From the NCBI GenBank assembly GCA_017466405.1, contig JAFTUF010000007.1, positions 1 through 64,000 on the forward strand: 64,000 nucleotides of DNA, read 5' to 3'. Each line of letters opens with the position of its first letter. Position 1 is the first letter of the stretch. The notes beneath the pieces are model-generated. The model ran no database searches. It saw nothing but the letters and a program-made list of their open reading frames with translations, and was not told the origin of the DNA. This DNA comes from Bacteroidales bacterium (lineage in GTDB: Bacteria > Bacteroidota > Bacteroidia > Bacteroidales > F082). Of the stretch, positions 9,654 through 24,504 are shown one piece after another. The position numbers and the translations under genes are program-made.

Positions 9654-10771
9654 AATATTATATAATAGCGGGTGAGCCTTCTGGTGATTTACATGGCTCG
9701 AATTTAATTGCATCAATAAAACAAAAAGATCCTCGTGCAAAGATCCGTGCGTGGGGCGGTGACCTTATGAAGCAACAAGGTGTGACTTTGGTGAAACATT
9801 ATAGAGACCTTGCTTTTATGGGTTTCGTAGAAGTGTTAAAGCATCTTGGGAAAATCTTAAATAATCTTAAGTTTTGCAAAAAAGACATCTTGAAATTTGC
9901 TCCAGATGCGATAATTCTTATTGATTATCCGGGCTTTAATATAAAGGTCGCGAAGTTTGCTCATGAACATAATATAAAGGTTTATTATTATATCTCTCCA
10001 CAGGTTTGGGCATGGAAAAAACAACGTGTTCATACTCTTAAGCGAGTCGTTGACAAGATGTTGGTTATCTTGCCCTTCGAAAAAGATTTTTATAATAATT
10101 ATAATGTTGATGTACATTTTGTTGGGCATCCAATCCTTGATGAATTGTCGAAGTTAAAACCTGTTAACAAAAATATCTTCTCTAAACAGAATAATCTTAA
10201 TCCTAAAAAGGAAATTATCGCTCTTTTGCCTGGGAGTAGAAAGCAAGAAGTGTCGCGTATGCTAGAAGTGATGCTTAAAGTTGTTAAGATGTTTCCTGAA
10301 TATCAGTTTGTTATTGGAGGAGCACCTTCTTTGTCGGAGGATTTCTATAGAAGTATAATAGGAGAGGAGAATGTTGATATTGTTTTTAATAAAACACATC
10401 AATTGATGCAGGTGTCGAGCGCTGCTGTGGTTACTTCGGGAACCGCTACATTAGAAGCTGCATTGCTGTATGTGCCTGAGGTTATTTGCTATAAGGGAAA
10501 TCAGATTTCATATCTCATAGCTAAGAATCTTATTAAAGTTAAGTTTATTTGTCTTGTAAATCTTATTATGAACAAACCTGTGGTTAAAGAGCTGATACAG
10601 CATGATTTAACTCCTGAAAATATCGCTGAAGAACTGAAGCAGATTCTGACTAATCCTAAGAAACAAAGAGCTCTTCTTGAAGATTATGAAGAACTTAGGT
10701 CTGTTTTGGGAAATGCCGGCGCCTCAAATAATGCTGCGTCAATTATAGTTTCAGATCTTAAAAATAAATGA
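9650..10771 (+). CDS. lpxB: Lipid-A-disaccharide synthase
   Basis: 373-aa GT19 glycosyltransferase that joins UDP-2,3-diacylglucosamine and lipid X to form the lipid A disaccharide at the inner face of the cytoplasmic membrane. Typical LpxB motifs are the N-terminal IIAGEPSGDLHGSNL, then FIDYPGFN-like IDYPGFNIKVAK, YYISPQVWAWK, FVGHPI, LLPGSRKQEV and SGTATLEAAL. Length is normal. It overlaps the upstream small gene by 4 bp. This confirms an outer membrane with lipid A. Confidence 0.95.
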   Translation: MKYYIIAGEPSGDLHGSNLIASIKQKDPRAKIRAWGGDLMKQQGVTLVKHYRDLAFMGFVEVLKHLGKILNNLKFCKKDILKFAPDAIILIDYPGFNIKVAKFAHEHNIKVYYYISPQVWAWKKQRVHTLKRVVDKMLVILPFEKDFYNNYNVDVHFVGHPILDELSKLKPVNKNIFSKQNNLNPKKEIIALLPGSRKQEVSRMLEVMLKVVKMFPEYQFVIGGAPSLSEDFYRSIIGEENVDIVFNKTHQLMQVSSAAVVTSGTATLEAALLYVPEVICYKGNQISYLIAKNLIKVKFICLVNLIMNKPVVKELIQHDLTPENIAEELKQILTNPKKQRALLEDYEELRSVLGNAGASNNAASIIVSDLKNK

Positions 10772-10859: not shown

Positions 10860-12992
10860 ATGTGCTGTATGGAAATTTCGTGGTTTAAATATCCGTTTAT
10901 CAGAATATTGATACCTTTTGTCGCTGGCGTCTTTATTGGATTTTCCACAGATAATCTCTCTTTTTCAAAAAATACCATCCTTCTTTTGTTAATAATTCTT
11001 ACGTTTTTATTAACAATTTTGATTGCTGCTTCTCAACTGATAAAGAACTATCGTTATAGATGGGTTTTCTTTATGTTATTTAATGTGTTCTTTTTTACGC
11101 TGTCATTTACATTAGTTGTAATTCGTGACTATAAGTTGAGTTACAATGCGTTGGATAATGTAAATGCTGATCCTGAATATTATGTGGCGCGTCTTTTTGA
11201 ATGTCCGACAATCAAAGATAAGTCTGTGAAAGTCAATTTAGAACTCTTAGGAGTTGCCGATTCTGTTAATTATTTGATTGAGAAAAATACAAAAGTTATT
11301 TCTTATTTTGAGAAAAATGAAAGTTCGCTTTCATTGAAATATGGCGACTGTATTGTTTTTTTTACAAATCCTAAAGAGATTGAAAAACCTCCGAATCCAG
11401 AGCAATTTGACTATAAAGATTATATGTATAAAAAAGGTGTGAACTATCAGGTTTATCTGAAATCTGATGATTGGTTTAATCTTGAATATAATAAGTCGAA
11501 TGTAATATTCGAGTTCTCTTACAAGATTAGAGATTACCTTCTTGAGACTATGCAGCGACTTGGTGTTCAAGGTGAAGAATATGCTGTTGCATCGGCTATA
11601 TTGCTAGGTTATGACGATAGTCTTCCTTTGGATCTGCGGCAGAAATATGTTGCTGCAGGGGCAATGCATATCTTATGCGTGTCGGGACTTCATGTGGGAG
11701 TGGTGTTTATGGTATTCTCTTATATTCTTGTATTTCTGAATGATAGAAAGAGAATTCAAAGTGTGATAAAGCAATTATTGCTTCTTTTGCTTGTGTGGTT
11801 TTATGCTTTGCTCGCAGGACTTGCGCCTTCAATATTGCGTTCAACGATTATGATTTCTTTTGTGATAATAGGAAATATAATCAATAGAAAGGGTGTGTTG
11901 CTTAATTCGCTCGCTGCATCAGCTTTTATATTGTTGTGTTTTAATCCTTCAAATTTGTTCGATGTTGGATTCCTTCTTTCGTATGTCGCTGTGATTGGGA
12001 TTGTTGTGCTTCAAAAACCTATTTCAAGAATGTTTTATTCTAAATATAAAATTGTCAATAAGATATGGGAAATTACTTCTGTGACAATTGCTGCTCAGAT
12101 TGCAACGACACCTTTTAGCATATATTATTTCCATCAGTTTCCAATCTATTTTTGGCTGAGCAATCTCTTTATGACGCCAATTTCTTCCATAGTGATTATC
12201 GGTGGAATGATAATGCTGTTAGTGTCCTTTGTACCTTATTTAAATATATTTGTGGCTTGGTTTGTCTCAAAGATGATTTTTGTGATGAATTACGGAGTGT
12301 CGTGGATTGAGACGCTGCCTTACTCTATAATAAAAGGTATCTATATTGATTCGGTTCAATTCGTGATACTTTTAATAACATTGCTCTTGATATTATTGAT
12401 GGTTGAATTGAAACGTAAAAGAAACATAATTCCTATAATGATTATGACGTTTTTGTTTTTGTTGATAAATGTTAAAAATAGTATGAATAATAATAAGCAG
12501 AGAGGGATAATGATTTATTCGTTAAATAATATGACGGCTGTTGATTTTATCAATGGAAGGGAACATTTGCTTCTGGTGGATTCTGCCTTTTTGGAAAACA
12601 AATCTGCTTTTTCATATAACATTGAGAATTTTTTGATAAAAAATGGACTTTTTTATAATGGAAAAACAAGGCTTATTCAAGACGATTTTGATGAGGTTTT
12701 TGTGAAAAAACGAAAAAGTGTCGTAACTTTTGATGAAAAACTGCTTGCTTTGTGCGAAAATGATGATTTTTTTGAAGATAGTCTCAGTTATAGAATACCG
12801 GTAGATTATATGTTGGTTTATGGTAAGAATAATAAAAAACTATCGCAGCTTTTGAAGGTGTATGATATTGGTAATCTGATAATTGACTCGAGTGTTCCTT
12901 ATTATATTTCGTTGAAAATAACAGAAGAAGCGAATGTTTTAGGTATAAAATGTCATTCTTTAAGAGAAAATGGTGCAATTTTTATTAAATAA
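10860..12992 (+). CDS. comEC: ComEC/Rec2-type DNA uptake channel
   Basis: 710-aa membrane protein. It has N-terminal membrane segments and a DUF4131-like region (residues 10-200). The Competence domain (about 230-510) contains AVASAILLGYDDSLP, AAGAMHILCVSGLHVG and LAPSILRSTIM. The C-terminal part (about 540-710) sits where many ComEC proteins carry a metallo-beta-lactamase domain, but no HxHxDH motif is visible, so this domain is absent or degenerate. ComEC passes single-stranded DNA through the inner membrane in natural transformation. Start could be ATG 10860 or 10869. It follows lpxB after 88 bp and may have its own promoter near 10836 (TATCTTGC, imperfect). Confidence 0.92.
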   Translation: MCCMEISWFKYPFIRILIPFVAGVFIGFSTDNLSFSKNTILLLLIILTFLLTILIAASQLIKNYRYRWVFFMLFNVFFFTLSFTLVVIRDYKLSYNALDNVNADPEYYVARLFECPTIKDKSVKVNLELLGVADSVNYLIEKNTKVISYFEKNESSLSLKYGDCIVFFTNPKEIEKPPNPEQFDYKDYMYKKGVNYQVYLKSDDWFNLEYNKSNVIFEFSYKIRDYLLETMQRLGVQGEEYAVASAILLGYDDSLPLDLRQKYVAAGAMHILCVSGLHVGVVFMVFSYILVFLNDRKRIQSVIKQLLLLLLVWFYALLAGLAPSILRSTIMISFVIIGNIINRKGVLLNSLAASAFILLCFNPSNLFDVGFLLSYVAVIGIVVLQKPISRMFYSKYKIVNKIWEITSVTIAAQIATTPFSIYYFHQFPIYFWLSNLFMTPISSIVIIGGMIMLLVSFVPYLNIFVAWFVSKMIFVMNYGVSWIETLPYSIIKGIYIDSVQFVILLITLLLILLMVELKRKRNIIPIMIMTFLFLLINVKNSMNNNKQRGIMIYSLNNMTAVDFINGREHLLLVDSAFLENKSAFSYNIENFLIKNGLFYNGKTRLIQDDFDEVFVKKRKSVVTFDEKLLALCENDDFFEDSLSYRIPVDYMLVYGKNNKKLSQLLKVYDIGNLIIDSSVPYYISLKITEEANVLGIKCHSLRENGAIFIK

Positions 12993-13071
12993 TTTTTTTA
13001 AAAATAAAATATTGATTATCAACTAAATGAAAAATATTTTTAAAAAAAGTGAATTTTTTTTAAAAAAAAGC

Positions 13072-16602: not shown

Positions 16603-16627
16603 TGCATTGCAAATTTTACTTGATACT

Positions 16628-18355
16628 ATGAAGAAGTTACTACTTATATTATTGATATTTATATCTTTGAATGTTTTCTCGCAGATTAGGGTGAAAGAAA
16701 ATTCCTTTCATCAGATTGATGGGTTTGTGATGTTGGATAAGACAAAGCATTTAGATGTTAACGACGCTCCAATGGCATTGATAAAAATCTCTACCGAAAA
16801 TATCAGTGCCGAACAGAGACGCCGTATCACTTTTAAGGGAAACCTTGCAACTTATTTTGACGTGCAGTTTGAACCTTCGGAGATTTATCTTTATATCACA
16901 GCAGAGGCGGCTAACTTCATAGAGATTCATCATCCCGACTACGGCAAGACCGAATATTGGCTGCCTCAGACTTTAAAACCATACTGCGGTTATGAGATGG
17001 TGGTGCAATATGTGCCGTTGATTAATAATGCAGAACAAAATTATCTTATCATAAAGACAGACCAAGCCAATGCCGATATTTATATTGATAATGAATATGT
17101 AGGAAAACAATTTGCGCATAAGCAATTGATAGTTGGTTCATCATACAATTGGAGGATTGAATGTGAACTTTACCGTACTGAAAGTGGCAACATTACAATA
17201 ACGAATGAGGAAAACTTAGTCGAAGTGACGATGCAACCTGAATATGGTTTTCTCAATGTTACGACATCTCCTGAAAATGGAGCATTAGTATATATCGATG
17301 ATGTGATGGTGGGTGGAACGCCTTATAAATCTGATAAATTGTCTGTTAGAGATTATACCGTGAAAGTTGAGAAAGACCAATTCAAGACCACGGAGAAATT
17401 GGTTACGGTTAACGACAAAAAGACGATAGATGTTAATATAGAGATGCTTTCGATTTACGTTGATGTGACTATAAATACAGATTCCAATTCCGAAATTTTT
17501 GTAAACAATGAATATAAAGCCAAAGGTAAATGGAACGGTAAATTACTCGAAGGAACATATACTTTTGAAGCAAGGAGAAAGAATTATAGAACGACACAAA
17601 AAATAGTGACGCTTGTTTCCGGTAATAAGCAAACAGTAAAATTAGATACTCCGGAAGCTATTTATGGTAGTATAGAAATTAGCAGTTATCCCACTGGTGC
17701 TGATGTTTATATCGATGGTAAACATTATGGAAGTACGCCTATTTATATCAAAGAAATGCTTATAGGAAAACATGAGTTGAAGATAGATAAAGATAGATAT
17801 AAGCTGATAACCAAGAATGTTACTATCAAAGAAAATGAAATCTTGAAAATAAACGAGAGACTTCAACCGGAGAAAGTGTCATTAGATAGATATTTAAGTA
17901 GAGGCGTTAAGTTTATTACTGTTAATGGTGCTTATTCTTCTGCACCGCAACTTTCATACGGAATTAGTTTCGGTTCCGTTAAACAAGTGGGATGGTTTGT
18001 CAGTGCGATGAGTAATTTTGATTTTACAGGATTTGATGTAATTGACAAATCACACGAGGAAGTGATTCTTACCGGTGAGAGCAGAAGTACGCGTCTTTCT
18101 GTGACAGGAGGTGTTATTGCGCGCATTGGCGGACCAGTATATTTTAAAGCAGGTGCGGGTTATGGTGCGATAATTAGAGTTGCAGAGACAATAGACGGTA
18201 ATTATGCGGAATACAAACCGGATACATTTAAAGGAGTAGATCTTACAGCAGGATTGCAATTTAATTTGAGAAACATAACATTTGGAATTGACGCTGTAAC
18301 GACAAACTTTAAAATGACGGAAATTAAATTAGGAATAGGAGTGAATTTTAATTAG
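16628..18355 (+). CDS. Exported PEGA-repeat protein
   Basis: 575-aa protein with a signal peptide (residues 1-19, ending NVFS). It has about four PEGA-type beta modules at roughly 137-205, 207-275, 275-340 and 344-415 (phrases ADIYIDNEYVG, ALVYIDDVMVGGTPY, EIFVNNEYKAKG, ADVYIDGKHYGSTPIY). A C-terminal Gly/aromatic-rich beta region of about 150 residues follows, with regular strands ending in F-x-x-N-F-N, which could be an outer-membrane barrel or beta-sandwich. PEGA modules are surface or S-layer-like ligand-binding units. The next gene encodes a lipoprotein with FGE fold, and the two may act together at the cell surface. The spacer on both sides carries word arrays. Confidence 0.8.
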   Translation: MKKLLLILLIFISLNVFSQIRVKENSFHQIDGFVMLDKTKHLDVNDAPMALIKISTENISAEQRRRITFKGNLATYFDVQFEPSEIYLYITAEAANFIEIHHPDYGKTEYWLPQTLKPYCGYEMVVQYVPLINNAEQNYLIIKTDQANADIYIDNEYVGKQFAHKQLIVGSSYNWRIECELYRTESGNITITNEENLVEVTMQPEYGFLNVTTSPENGALVYIDDVMVGGTPYKSDKLSVRDYTVKVEKDQFKTTEKLVTVNDKKTIDVNIEMLSIYVDVTINTDSNSEIFVNNEYKAKGKWNGKLLEGTYTFEARRKNYRTTQKIVTLVSGNKQTVKLDTPEAIYGSIEISSYPTGADVYIDGKHYGSTPIYIKEMLIGKHELKIDKDRYKLITKNVTIKENEILKINERLQPEKVSLDRYLSRGVKFITVNGAYSSAPQLSYGISFGSVKQVGWFVSAMSNFDFTGFDVIDKSHEEVILTGESRSTRLSVTGGVIARIGGPVYFKAGAGYGAIIRVAETIDGNYAEYKPDTFKGVDLTAGLQFNLRNITFGIDAVTTNFKMTEIKLGIGVNFN

Positions 18356-18492: not shown

Positions 18493-20181
18493 ATGAAAAA
18501 AACGATATTACTATTAAGCGCGATAATACTTCTCTTTGCAGGATGCAAGAAATTTGATGATATAGAAGCCAGCAAACTTGAGATAAAAACTGAAAATATA
18601 GAAAAAGGCTGGGATTATATTAAGATAAGTGGTGAGTATTCTTATCCTGTGGAGTTGGAGTCTCTGACATTGTTACTTTCCGAGATAGAAGACATGAGCG
18701 GAGCGAAGACATACGACTGTGTTTTAGAAGGAAAGATATTTAGTGTTGAAGCAACAGATTTGAATGATGGAATATCATATTACTATTGTTATGAATATGA
18801 CAATGGATATACAAAGGAGAAAGGAGAAATAAGTACGCACGCCAAACCTATTGTTGTTACAGAAGATGCCACTAATGTTACTACCAAGTCTGCCATGTTG
18901 AAAGGTAGTGTTACTAACAGCGACGCCATAAACAAAATTACAGCGCGAGGATTTTGTTGGAGCATCATGCCGAATCCTACAATAGAAAACGACTTCGTTG
19001 ACAACGGCAGCAGCAGCGGAACAGGAACCTCAACCTTTACCCATTCGTTTATTAACTTAACAGAAAATACAACTTATTATTACAAAGCCTACGCCACCAC
19101 AGACTGGGGAATAATTTACGGAGAGGAGAAGAGTTTTAAGACGGTGGAGATAATGACGCCGGAATTAACAACTAATAACGTTACAGATATTACAACAAAT
19201 TCTGCTAAATGTGGAGGTAATGTTACTTCAGATGGTAATGCCACCGTAACAGCAAGAGGTGTTTGTTGGAGTACATCTCCAAATCCGACGATAGAAGATA
19301 ATAAGACAACTGATGGTAACGCTACAGGAAACTTTATTTCGAATCTAACGAATCTAACAGATAACACTACATATTACGTTAGAGCCTACGCAACGAATGA
19401 GAAAGGACCGAGTTATGGAGAGGAGAAGAGTTTTAAGACGGCAAAAGTATTCGACGAGACAATTGATTCAAGTGGAAATAGGATAATAACATTGAATGGA
19501 AATGTGGTCTTTACTATGATAGCAGTGGAAGGAGGTACTTTCCAAATGGGTGCTACCTCAGAACAAGGTGGCGACGCTTATAGTAATGAAAGCCCTGTTC
19601 ATAATGTTACCTTAAGTGATTATTATATTGGAGAGACAGAGGTGACACAAGAACTATGGCAAGCTGTTATGGGCAGCAACCCGAGTCATTTCAGTGGTTA
19701 CCCTCAAAGACCAGTGGAATATGTTTCATGGAACGATTGCCAAGAGTTTATAACGAAGCTTAACGAATTAACAGGCAGGAATTTCCGACTTCCTACGGAA
19801 GCGGAATGGGAATATGCAGCAAGAGGAGGCAATAAATCTCAAGGTTACAAATACAGCGGCAGCAATACTTTAGGCAATGTTGCGTGGTACGATGACAACA
19901 GCAGTTCTACACATAACGTAAAGACCAAATCTCCAAACGAATTAGGCATTTACGATATGAGTGGTAATGTATATGAATGGTGTCAGGACTGGTACGGCAG
20001 TTACAGCAGCAGCTCACAGACCGATCCTACAGGACCTTCATCGGGCTCTCTCCGCGTTCTCCGTGGCGGCAGCTGGAACCACTACGCGAGGTACTGCCGA
20101 GTGTCGTATCGTGACCGCAACAATCCCGACTACGGGTACGACGGCTACGGCTTCCGCCTTGCCTTACAGGAACTACAATAA
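18493..20181 (+). CDS. Lipoprotein with two FN3-like modules and an FGE-sulfatase (C-type-lectin-like) domain; candidate DGR target
   Basis: 562 aa. Lipobox LFAGC (C18) gives a membrane-anchored lipoprotein. Two fibronectin-III-like modules follow, about 116-217 and 220-315, sharing the phrases ITARGFCWS/VTARGVCWS and YGEEKSFKT. The FGE-sulfatase domain occupies about 341-560 (VEGGTFQMG, ETEVTQELWQAV, RLPTEAEWEYAARGG, YDMSGNVYEW, LRGGSWN). The cysteine pair of true formylglycine-generating enzymes is not evident, so this is a binding or structural version of the fold. The last codons (residues 529-552) change abruptly to GC-rich NAC/NAT/NGC codons, as expected for a DGR variable region. The lipoprotein would display this variable face outside the cell. 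Confidence 0.85.
   Translation: MKKTILLLSAIILLFAGCKKFDDIEASKLEIKTENIEKGWDYIKISGEYSYPVELESLTLLLSEIEDMSGAKTYDCVLEGKIFSVEATDLNDGISYYYCYEYDNGYTKEKGEISTHAKPIVVTEDATNVTTKSAMLKGSVTNSDAINKITARGFCWSIMPNPTIENDFVDNGSSSGTGTSTFTHSFINLTENTTYYYKAYATTDWGIIYGEEKSFKTVEIMTPELTTNNVTDITTNSAKCGGNVTSDGNATVTARGVCWSTSPNPTIEDNKTTDGNATGNFISNLTNLTDNTTYYVRAYATNEKGPSYGEEKSFKTAKVFDETIDSSGNRIITLNGNVVFTMIAVEGGTFQMGATSEQGGDAYSNESPVHNVTLSDYYIGETEVTQELWQAVMGSNPSHFSGYPQRPVEYVSWNDCQEFITKLNELTGRNFRLPTEAEWEYAARGGNKSQGYKYSGSNTLGNVAWYDDNSSSTHNVKTKSPNELGIYDMSGNVYEWCQDWYGSYSSSSQTDPTGPSSGSLRVLRGGSWNHYARYCRVSYRDRNNPDYGYDGYGFRLALQELQ
20077..20151 (+). other. Candidate DGR variable region (VR)
   Basis: Between the fixed GGSW and GFRL motifs, nearly every codon that would be AAC/AAT in a DGR template is AAC, CAC, TAC, GAC, GGC, CGC or TAT. 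The protein reads N-H-Y-A-R-Y-C-R-V-S-Y-R-D-R-N-N-P-D-Y-G-Y-D-G-Y. Non-AAY positions (GCG AGG, TGC CGA GTG TCG, CGT, CCC GAC) keep one GC-rich codon choice unlike the rest of this AT-rich gene. FGE-fold domains with exactly this C-terminal motif order are known DGR targets in Bacteroidota and Treponema. The template repeat and reverse transcriptase are not in this window, so it would have to be diversified in trans. Confidence 0.6.
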
Positions 20182-20211
20182 CATTCATCATTTTGTACTA
20201 AGCTAAGGGAA

Positions 20212-20288
20212 CCGAGTTCAATGAATGCAGTGGAGCAAACGAAGTGAGGGACGAACGAAGTAAGCGGAACGGAATACATTGAACTCGG
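20212..20288. other. 12-bp inverted repeat just after the candidate VR
   Basis: CCGAGTTCAATG (20212-20223) pairs exactly with CATTGAACTCGG (20277-20288) around a GC-rich 53-nt interior with GAAGTGAGGGACGAACGAAG-like sequence. It starts 31 bp after the FGE stop. In the Bordetella phage DGR, a hairpin/cruciform downstream of the VR promotes retrohoming; this may be the counterpart, or simply a terminator-like element. Confidence 0.6.
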
Positions 20289-20300
20289 GAACTATATAGA

Positions 20301-20324
20301 GACGTCACTCCTGTGGCGTCTTTT
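20301..20324 (+). terminator. Hairpin of the GAGACG palindrome family
   Basis: GACGTCAC (20301-20308) pairs with GTGGCGTC (20313-20320; one G-T pair) over TCCT, followed by TTTT. A likely terminator after the FGE gene. Confidence 0.55.
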
Positions 20325-20785
20325 AAATTGAAAATTGAAAACGGAAAATTGACTTTAGACCTTTGAGCTTAATCTGACTTTGACGGATACGAAATTTTAA
20401 ATCTACAATCCAATTTTTGTATTCTGATGTGATTATGTTTTTATCCTCCGATTCAAAAGTAATGTCTTTCAGATAATGTTTGTCGTATTTTTTTTCATGA
20501 AATTTTGGTTAATAAGTTTAGGCGCAAAATTAAACCATTCTTTTCAAATAAAAAAGTTAAAAATTGTTAAAAGTAAAGTCATCGAGGTTTGGGAACGATT
20601 TGAATCACAAATTCAAAATTGAAAATCTAAAAAAACTCAATTGTCAACTGTAAATTGTTAATTGTAAATTCCATCACACCTCCTTCGTGTCACAGTCGTA
20701 CCAAGTTCGTGTCAGGTTCGAGTGAGCGTGTAATGAAAGCGGAGATAAAAAAATCTATTGTCCGTTGTCCGTTGTCCGTTGTCTT
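20325..20785. repeat. Gene-free spacer with word arrays
   Basis: 20325-20368 repeats 16492-16535 exactly (44 bp). 20370-20600 shows no gene, RNA or array that I can recognise. 20600-20670 has AATTGTCAACTGTAAATTG-type 7-bp words. 20757-20785 is GTCCGTT in tandem, ending at the promoter of the next gene. Confidence 0.75.
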
Positions 20786-23643: not shown

Positions 23644-24504
23644 TTATTGAATCGCCAATCTAAATCCTGTGTTATAGTCGCGGTAGTGGATTCCTTGTTG
23701 GTAGCGTGTTGTCACTCTTGCTTGTTGAGCGTTGGTATTCCAGCTTCCGCCGCGGAACACTTTATAACCTTGATTATAAACATCGCCTACTGGGTCTGTC
23801 ACGGCTTCTTCTGTATAGTCATAATACCAGTCTTGGCACATTTCCCATACGTTGCCGCTCATGTCGTAGAGACCTAAGCCGTTAGGGTCTTTCTTTCCTA
23901 CTTCGCTACACATATCGCTGTTTTGGTCAATCCATGCTACTTCGAGAACATTGCCGCCACCTGCATATAAGCTATATGATGTTGAAGCACCGCCTTTTGC
24001 AGCATATTCCCATTGAGCTTCTGTTGGAAGAGCGAAGTTCAAGCCTGTGAATTCGTTTAACTTAGCGATGAAAGTCTCGACTTCGTCGTATGAAATTCTG
24101 TAAGCTGGGAAGTTGTCGCCTTTACCGAATTCTTTTTCCCATTGCATATCGTTCTCGTTGTTAGGAGTTGCGTTCATCACGGCTTCCCATAAACTTTGTG
24201 TCACTTCGTATTTGTTGATATAGAAGTCGCTGACTGTTACCTCATGAACTGGAGCTTCGTTAGGAAGGGCCTCTTCGTCGTAACAGTAATATAAGACAGA
24301 GTCTTTCTGTGCGCCCATGTAGAATGTGCCGCCATCGACTTTTACCATATTGGTAATCATGTCTCTGATAGCGTCTTTTTCTGTTTTGCCTAAATCGCCA
24401 GTCCAATTGATTTCAAAACCGTTGATAGTTTCATTTTTTGTATTGTCTTTATCGCATGATTGTAATGCCAAAAAACAACATAAGATTACTAATACTTTTT
24501 TCAT
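23644..24504 (-). CDS. FGE-sulfatase-domain lipoprotein
   Basis: 286 aa, lipobox LQSC (C17). After a short linker, the FGE-sulfatase fold runs from about residue 52 to the end: VDGGTFYMGAQ, KYEVTQSLWEAVM, LPTEAQWEYAAKGG, YDMSGNVWEMCQDW, FRGGSWNTNAQQARVTTR and NTGFRLA. It is a smaller relative of the protein at 18493-20181 but lacks the FN3-like modules. Its C-terminal codons show ordinary AT-rich usage (CAA, ACA, AGA), so it does not look like a DGR variable region. Such surface lipoproteins in Bacteroidota are of unknown function. A near-consensus TATATTTA box lies about 80 bp upstream. Confidence 0.85.
   Translation of the reverse strand: MKKVLVILCCFLALQSCDKDNTKNETINGFEINWTGDLGKTEKDAIRDMITNMVKVDGGTFYMGAQKDSVLYYCYDEEALPNEAPVHEVTVSDFYINKYEVTQSLWEAVMNATPNNENDMQWEKEFGKGDNFPAYRISYDEVETFIAKLNEFTGLNFALPTEAQWEYAAKGGASTSYSLYAGGGNVLEVAWIDQNSDMCSEVGKKDPNGLGLYDMSGNVWEMCQDWYYDYTEEAVTDPVGDVYNQGYKVFRGGSWNTNAQQARVTTRYQQGIHYRDYNTGFRLAIQ

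Follow-up and report, generated by a model that had tools for sequence, protein, structure and literature searches.

The closest described relatives of the locus analysed here belong to the DGR of Treponema denticola, whose FGE targets, as described in parts of PMC4891356, are mostly lipoproteins, several of them remote from one core; the system includes an HRDC accessory gene, and target genes persist in isolates that lack the RT and TR. In its main text neither 'hairpin' nor 'inverted repeat' appears. The BPP-1 DGR of Bordetella phage (target Mtd) depends on an inverted repeat just downstream of its VR; sections of PMC3240598 describe GC-rich stems of 7-10 bp, free in sequence, a sequence-dependent 4-nt GRNA loop and a location 4-34 bp after the VR. 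Hairpins are also mentioned for archaeal DGRs in parts of PMC4372165, together with partial DGRs consisting of a target, a VR and cis elements. For Thiohalocapsa PB-PSB1, parts of PMC10907252 describe VRs identical to a distant template at all non-A sites, read there as activity in trans, besides incomplete DGR loci and some targets with FGE domains. A limited search of titles and the first lines of abstracts gave no paper on DGRs of the genus studied here or on the 3' element described below.

Target gene and its variable repeat

The window, i.e. the whole stretch of 64,000 nucleotides that was analysed, carries a gene with the following features:

18493-20181, + strand: DGR target gene (very probably), a predicted lipoprotein of 562 aa with a C-terminal FGE-sulfatase (PF03781) domain
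18493-18546, + strand: signal peptide, read from the translation and ending in LFAGC, which we take by eye to be lipobox-like, with the cysteine as residue 18
19513-20163, + strand: FGE-fold domain, residues 341-557, with TvpA (2y3c) as the nearest solved structure by sequence
20044-20165, + strand: variable repeat VR1, delimited by homology to the template

A profile search matched PF03781 in the protein with E 1.1e-49, and the top PDB match (E 7.2e-50) was TvpA (2y3c), the DGR target of T. denticola, with the VRs of the two proteins aligned. VR1 sits at the C-terminus of the FGE-fold domain, as in TvpA-type (FGE/CLec) variable proteins, and the FGE fold (C-type-lectin-like) proposed in the initial annotation for this predicted lipoprotein was thereby recovered. 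The locus is like the T. denticola system in its FGE-fold target and in the place of the VR within the domain; it differs in its host, a member of the Bacteroidales, and in that a core DGR of this kind was not found in its own genome. The TvpA end aligned with VR1 is presumably the variable, ligand-binding one. The lipoprotein of the window is predicted to be displayed at the surface and may likewise bind a ligand.

The TR used as the reference for VR1 was that of a sister species (genome G151), as the organism's own TR was not at hand. VR1 departs from it at 17 of its 35 adenines and 6 of its 87 non-A bases (Fisher p = 6e-7), in agreement with the adenine-directed footprint originally claimed. 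The codon pattern read at AAC/AAT sites was also present: of the 15 such codons of the G151 template, 12 are altered in VR1, and the third base is unchanged in all 15. One of the 12, CTC at 20059-20061, is CTT in the templates of two congeners (G001 and G064) and in VR2 and so may not be adenine-derived in VR1. The accompanying statement that the other codons are fixed holds for most of them; 5 of the 19 A-free template codons differ. An adenine excess was found with all eight same-genus templates (p 5.6e-4 to 1.4e-6), whereas with four templates from outside the genus, compared over the RGG..GFR stretch, it was weak (p 0.015, 0.024) or absent (0.36, 0.37), because those templates have diverged. 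The contrast between a GC-rich repeat and an AT-rich gene body was likewise real, with 0.63 for VR1 and 0.40 for the body, where none of 477 windows of 122 bases reaches the VR1 value. The annotated interval, 20041-20181, does contain the VR, but the homology to the template covers only 20044-20165.

The assembly was searched with 20030-20181 as the query, which returned the query itself, a full-length second repeat on another contig (VR2, C17:97372-97523, - strand, 80% identical) and one chance-level match. The latter, 17 bases on contig C21 with E 2.09, was rejected as a third VR. Each of the two VRs ends an FGE-domain protein. Compared with the G151 TR, VR2 is changed at 18 of 36 adenines and at 11 of 87 other bases. 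At first and second codon positions all 21 differences between VR1 and VR2 fall on adenines of the G151 template, which occupy 34 of the 78 such sites (p 1.7e-10), and with four other same-genus templates, over the RGG..GFR stretch, 17 to 20 of 23 differences do so. Third positions differ at 5 of 40 sites, none of them a template A, which means that at least one of the VRs has not been recently rewritten from the same template. Fourfold sites differ between the two genes at 32 of 62 positions in the upstream domain, and within the VR at 3 of 18 (p 0.014); this suggests, without proof, that the VRs were overwritten from similar templates after the genes had diverged. A looser count of same-residue codons gave no significant difference (55/151 in the body, 5/23 in the VR, p 0.24).

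Such a pattern might be sought in processes other than a DGR, namely ordinary diversifying selection or recombination between FGE paralogues. FGE-domain relatives are abundant in the clade (420 candidate stretches), and the alignment of VR1 with the variable, presumably ligand-binding end of TvpA (2y3c) would suit such an origin. The adenine bias with third bases retained, the TR/VR pairs accompanied by an RT in congeners and the lack of any such pattern in a low-GC FGE paralogue of the same window speak against it, and we regard it as extremely improbable. Judged from the sequence comparisons, VR1 is a real DGR variable repeat on an FGE-fold, TvpA-like predicted lipoprotein.

Two neighbouring genes deserve mention. 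The paralogue just referred to is a second FGE-fold gene at 23644-24504 (- strand), with a low-GC C-terminus and without the DGR pattern; lying 3.5 kb from the target gene, it provides a natural control. Upstream of the target gene, at 16607-18355, is a gene for a PEGA-domain protein. In G151 the PEGA and FGE-VR parts are fused in one protein, hinting that the PEGA-domain gene and the target gene of the window may work jointly.

Templates and reverse transcriptases in the genome and the genus

The assembly of the organism comprises 2.43 Mb in 69 contigs and is 95% complete. PF00078 gave a single match in it, on contig C59, and none in the window, as the initial annotation had stated for the RT. 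An FGE-type template was not found in the assembly with VR1 as the query; a 23-base template pattern allowing up to 3 mismatches met only VR1, VR2 and, near 23729, the low-GC FGE gene, and a search with the G151 template, which found VR1 but missed VR2 and hence was not exhaustive, gave no FGE-type template either. The RT search applied to the congeners revealed no close FGE-type RT in the assembly. No short HRDC accessory gene was found there, the two HRDC matches belonging to long frames (755 and 812 aa).

The C59 RT belongs to a DGR with Avd, whose template lies at about 12906-13027 of the contig. Both VRs of this DGR are located within one Lcl_C/FISUMP-type protein (L005, G000:C59, 9405-11717), at 9925-10042 and 11593-11714, and the stretch tested between them was not VR-like. 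They differ from the template at 13/40 and 12/37 adenines and at 1/82 and 0/78 other bases, so that the TR/VR differences are nearly adenine-only, as for VR1; the target domain (Lcl_C), the template and the accessory gene (Avd) are different. Elsewhere in the assembly this template had no match better than E 1.18. A search of the genome for a DGR RT with an adjacent template matching VR1, which the initial annotation had proposed, thus yielded only the C59 DGR, with a template for another target family. The C59 template lies in frame within the 5' part of the RT ORF (L005, 12809-14203), an arrangement also seen in G033 (L065) and G101 (L092).

VR1 was also searched against 149 genomes, including its own, and 21 matched; several of the same-genus matches are template-like (RGGSWNNNARNCRVSNRNNN...). 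The cassette with the target most like the window gene is that of G151, in the order FGE target, 151-aa HRDC protein, RT and TR, whereas T. denticola has its accessory gene between the TR and the RT, according to parts of PMC4891356. The G151 cis VR differs from its TR at 19 of 41 adenines and 2 of 96 other bases. With the G001 RT as the query, matches were obtained in 35 of 99 genomes of the genus at E 1e-10. Close FGE-type RTs, defined by E below 1e-90 (a cut-off that leaves out weaker RTs, e.g. those of G054 and G085), number eight in six genomes, and all eight have an adjacent FGE-type template. An HRDC accessory gene, also described for T. denticola, was present in 4/4 cassettes scanned (G151, G001, G064 and G069). 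Same-genus FGE-type templates (L210, L211, L213-L215, L217 and L218) share the 3' features AGCTTA and ATGGAT, which possibly belong to the template RNA.

These cassettes bear on the idea that the Avd-type DGR on C59 rewrites VR1 via a second template missing from the assembly. Its RT is the only DGR RT found in the organism's own genome, and its own VRs are changed almost exclusively at adenines. Its known template, however, is of the Lcl_C/FISUMP target kind without any better off-contig match than that given above, the eight FGE-type templates of the six congeners all adjoin an RT of a different kind, and the congener cassettes scanned carry HRDC where C59 carries Avd. We consider rewriting by the C59 DGR very unlikely. 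A known mobile carrier of an FGE-type machine is unsupported, since the RTs matched in plasmid and phage collections (30 and 62 records, E 1e-20) were all less than 60% identical to the G151 RT; a scan of IMG/VR for the FGE-type template pattern gave 0 exact matches.

Of the 99 genus genomes 18 had a TR/VR match at E<1e-6, with a close FGE-type RT in 6 of the 18. It is thus common for a target to lack a visible machine, through incompleteness, loss or both. In the six RT-bearing genomes 20 VRs were compared with the resident templates, 8 in cis and 12 on other contigs, which is what 'remote' means in these drafts. Each cis VR departed from its own template at one non-A site at most. Three of the 12 others (G001 C41, G069 C67 and G040 C28) matched a resident template at every non-A site (0/85 each), one more (G040 C21) had 3/85 non-A differences, and eight had at least 8 from every resident template found. 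On the strength of the three 0/85 repeats, a template in these congeners appears to serve genes on other contigs too, and many of the other-contig VRs were not rewritten recently or were written from other templates. The genus resembles Thiohalocapsa PB-PSB1, as portrayed in parts of PMC10907252, in VRs that match a distant template at non-A sites, in incomplete loci and in FGE targets; the Thiohalocapsa targets are putative conflict-system sensors, unlike the one studied here, and metagenome data revealed diversification there.

VR1 could also be a relic, written by a DGR that the lineage has lost, in a gene that has gone on to evolve like any other FGE lipoprotein. The absence from the own assembly of an FGE-type TR, of such an RT and of a short HRDC gene, the presence of a close FGE-type RT in 6 of the 18 genus genomes with a TR/VR match and the five non-A third-position differences from VR2 all fit such a history, and isolates of T. 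denticola without the core DGR are described, in parts of PMC4891356, as retaining target genes. Set against this, the absence of the machine from a 95% complete draft in 69 contigs is weak evidence, fourfold divergence is lower in the VR than in the body of the gene, and both VRs retain the conserved 3' flank and core described below. We find loss of the machine quite conceivable, while leaning slightly against it. Whether a cassette of the G151 kind is still present in the organism and acts in trans we hold to be evenly poised. The initial annotation had proposed the gene as a remote target acted on in trans: it is remote from any RT found, and the matching kind of machine exists in six of 99 congeners. 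The trans part of that proposal is supported in part, and action of this kind may take place in the organism today.

The 3' flank and its inverted repeat

The sequence that follows VR1 contains these features:

20166-20225, + strand: 3' flank, sharing 55 of its 60 bases with that of VR2; the first 16 are coding and 44 non-coding
20198-20206, + strand: CTAAGCTAA motif of the VR 3' flank
20212-20223, + strand: left arm of an inverted repeat (CCGAGTTCAATG)
20246-20260, + strand: conserved core GAGGGACGAACGAAG between the arms
20277-20288, + strand: right arm of the inverted repeat (CATTGAACTCGG)

In relatives such as L022, L042 and L044 a similar flank is located past the stop codon, which comes earlier. 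As in BPP-1, adenine mutagenesis into the VR goes with an inverted repeat just downstream, but the BPP-1 geometry is not reproduced, since a 12-bp stem encloses 53 bases and starts 46 bases after the VR. Inverted repeats of such a kind are not rare by themselves, 10 being present in the window.

An inverted repeat with a GAGGGACGAACG core stands behind both VR1 and VR2. The core GAGGGACGAACGAAG, with at most 1 mismatch, occurs at 2 sites in the assembly of 2.43 Mb, one after each of these VRs. A 22-base version gave 39 matches in 21 of the 99 genus genomes, compared with 7 for the reversed control pattern. Matches with 0-1 mismatch were situated 81-123 bp past VR-ending GFR/GLR codons in 9 of 9 cases (the two own ones included); a location past a VR end was found for 2 of 6 matches with 2 mismatches and for none of the 11 examined out of 24 with 3 mismatches. 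Many of the weaker matches represent a dispersed repeat (GTCATTGCGAGCGAGGAACGA). A dispersed repeat with GTCATTGCGAGCGAGG(A/C)ACGAGCGTGGCAATCC, which resembles the core, has 15 pattern matches in G008 and occurs in other genomes too (e.g. L270 and L284); where examined, it does not adjoin VRs.

The exact core was found behind 16 of 106 VR-like sites and behind none of 12 TR sites, among which one TR appears twice, with 28 of 160 sites unclassed and left out of these counts; it thus marks a subset. The shorter core AGGGACG followed 22 of 106 VR-like sites vs 1 of 14 low-GC FGE ends, a class that includes some VR-like ends, and the contrast was not significant (p 0.30). In three genomes with both RT and TR (G064, G069 and G151) the core had no match within 3 mismatches and must accordingly be dispensable for DGR targeting; G069 nonetheless has one of the 0/85 VRs on another contig.

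The arms of 16 distinct copies of the inverted repeat paired better with their own partner (mean 10.3) than with exchanged ones (6.5), and 0 of 5000 permutations were as good, although the copies are related and this is not a clean probability; 3 of the 16 fell below the exchanged mean. Perfect arms of at least 10 were present in 32 of 104 VR-like flanks vs 0 of 104 upstream control stretches, and in 1 of 12 TR flanks. The loci compared for the 3' element were mostly chosen for their VRs, so the weight rests on the assembly and 99-genome searches. Folding of the hairpin region as DNA was unremarkable (z -0.25 and -1.70), which leaves the case for the hairpin to its recurrence and covariation.

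Rfam gave no match on 20000-20500 up to E 1. A reading of the hairpin as a terminator was rejected, as a pattern scan of 20100-20760 gave no terminator-like site; by eye, the GACGTCACTCCTGTGGCGTCTTTT stretch directly after the hairpin is terminator-like. The 3' flank and the inverted repeat probably form a tag that marks the target site for the retrohoming machinery.

Proposed mechanism and its meaning

The explanation that we favour is that the gene is served by a DGR of the T. denticola (TvpA) type. An error-prone reverse transcriptase would copy a template RNA and insert bases at random wherever the template has an adenine; the resulting cDNA would replace the C-terminal repeat 20044-20165. 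Relative to the sister template, 13 adenine-bearing codons of the FGE-fold lipoprotein are changed, and most of the remaining codons are not. The 3' flank, together with the inverted repeat, would act as the tag for the retrohoming machinery, and the writing machine, absent from the draft, would be an HRDC/RT/TR cassette like that of G151. The adenine-specific substitutions, the VR1-VR2 differences, the homology with TvpA that includes the VR and the association of the core with VRs together make a TvpA-type DGR target, taken as a whole, highly probable. The gene can be placed as an additional member of this known target class, which may still be active.

More broadly, gut Bacteroidales might run TvpA-type DGRs as dispersed systems, in which one RT and template serve several distant lipoprotein genes tagged at their 3' ends. 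The tag would consist of the conserved flank and a covarying inverted repeat, with the GAGGGACGAACG core added in one lineage, and its geometry would be unlike that of the known tetraloop hairpin. We offer this joint reading tentatively and consider it rather doubtful; the lack of the core in three of the six RT-bearing genomes argues against a general role for it as the tag. If it were true, the 3' tag would expose remote targets that searches of RT neighbourhoods miss, and a large survey does state, in a part of PMC8144416, that its own approach would miss remote DGR targets.

The window gene presents a remote DGR target that is recognisable by sequence alone, and the three other-contig VRs without non-A changes provide genome-internal evidence for rewriting in trans in its congeners. 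Should the 3' element be the tag, one could search with it for some remote targets at least, and it would provide a recognition signal that can be tested.
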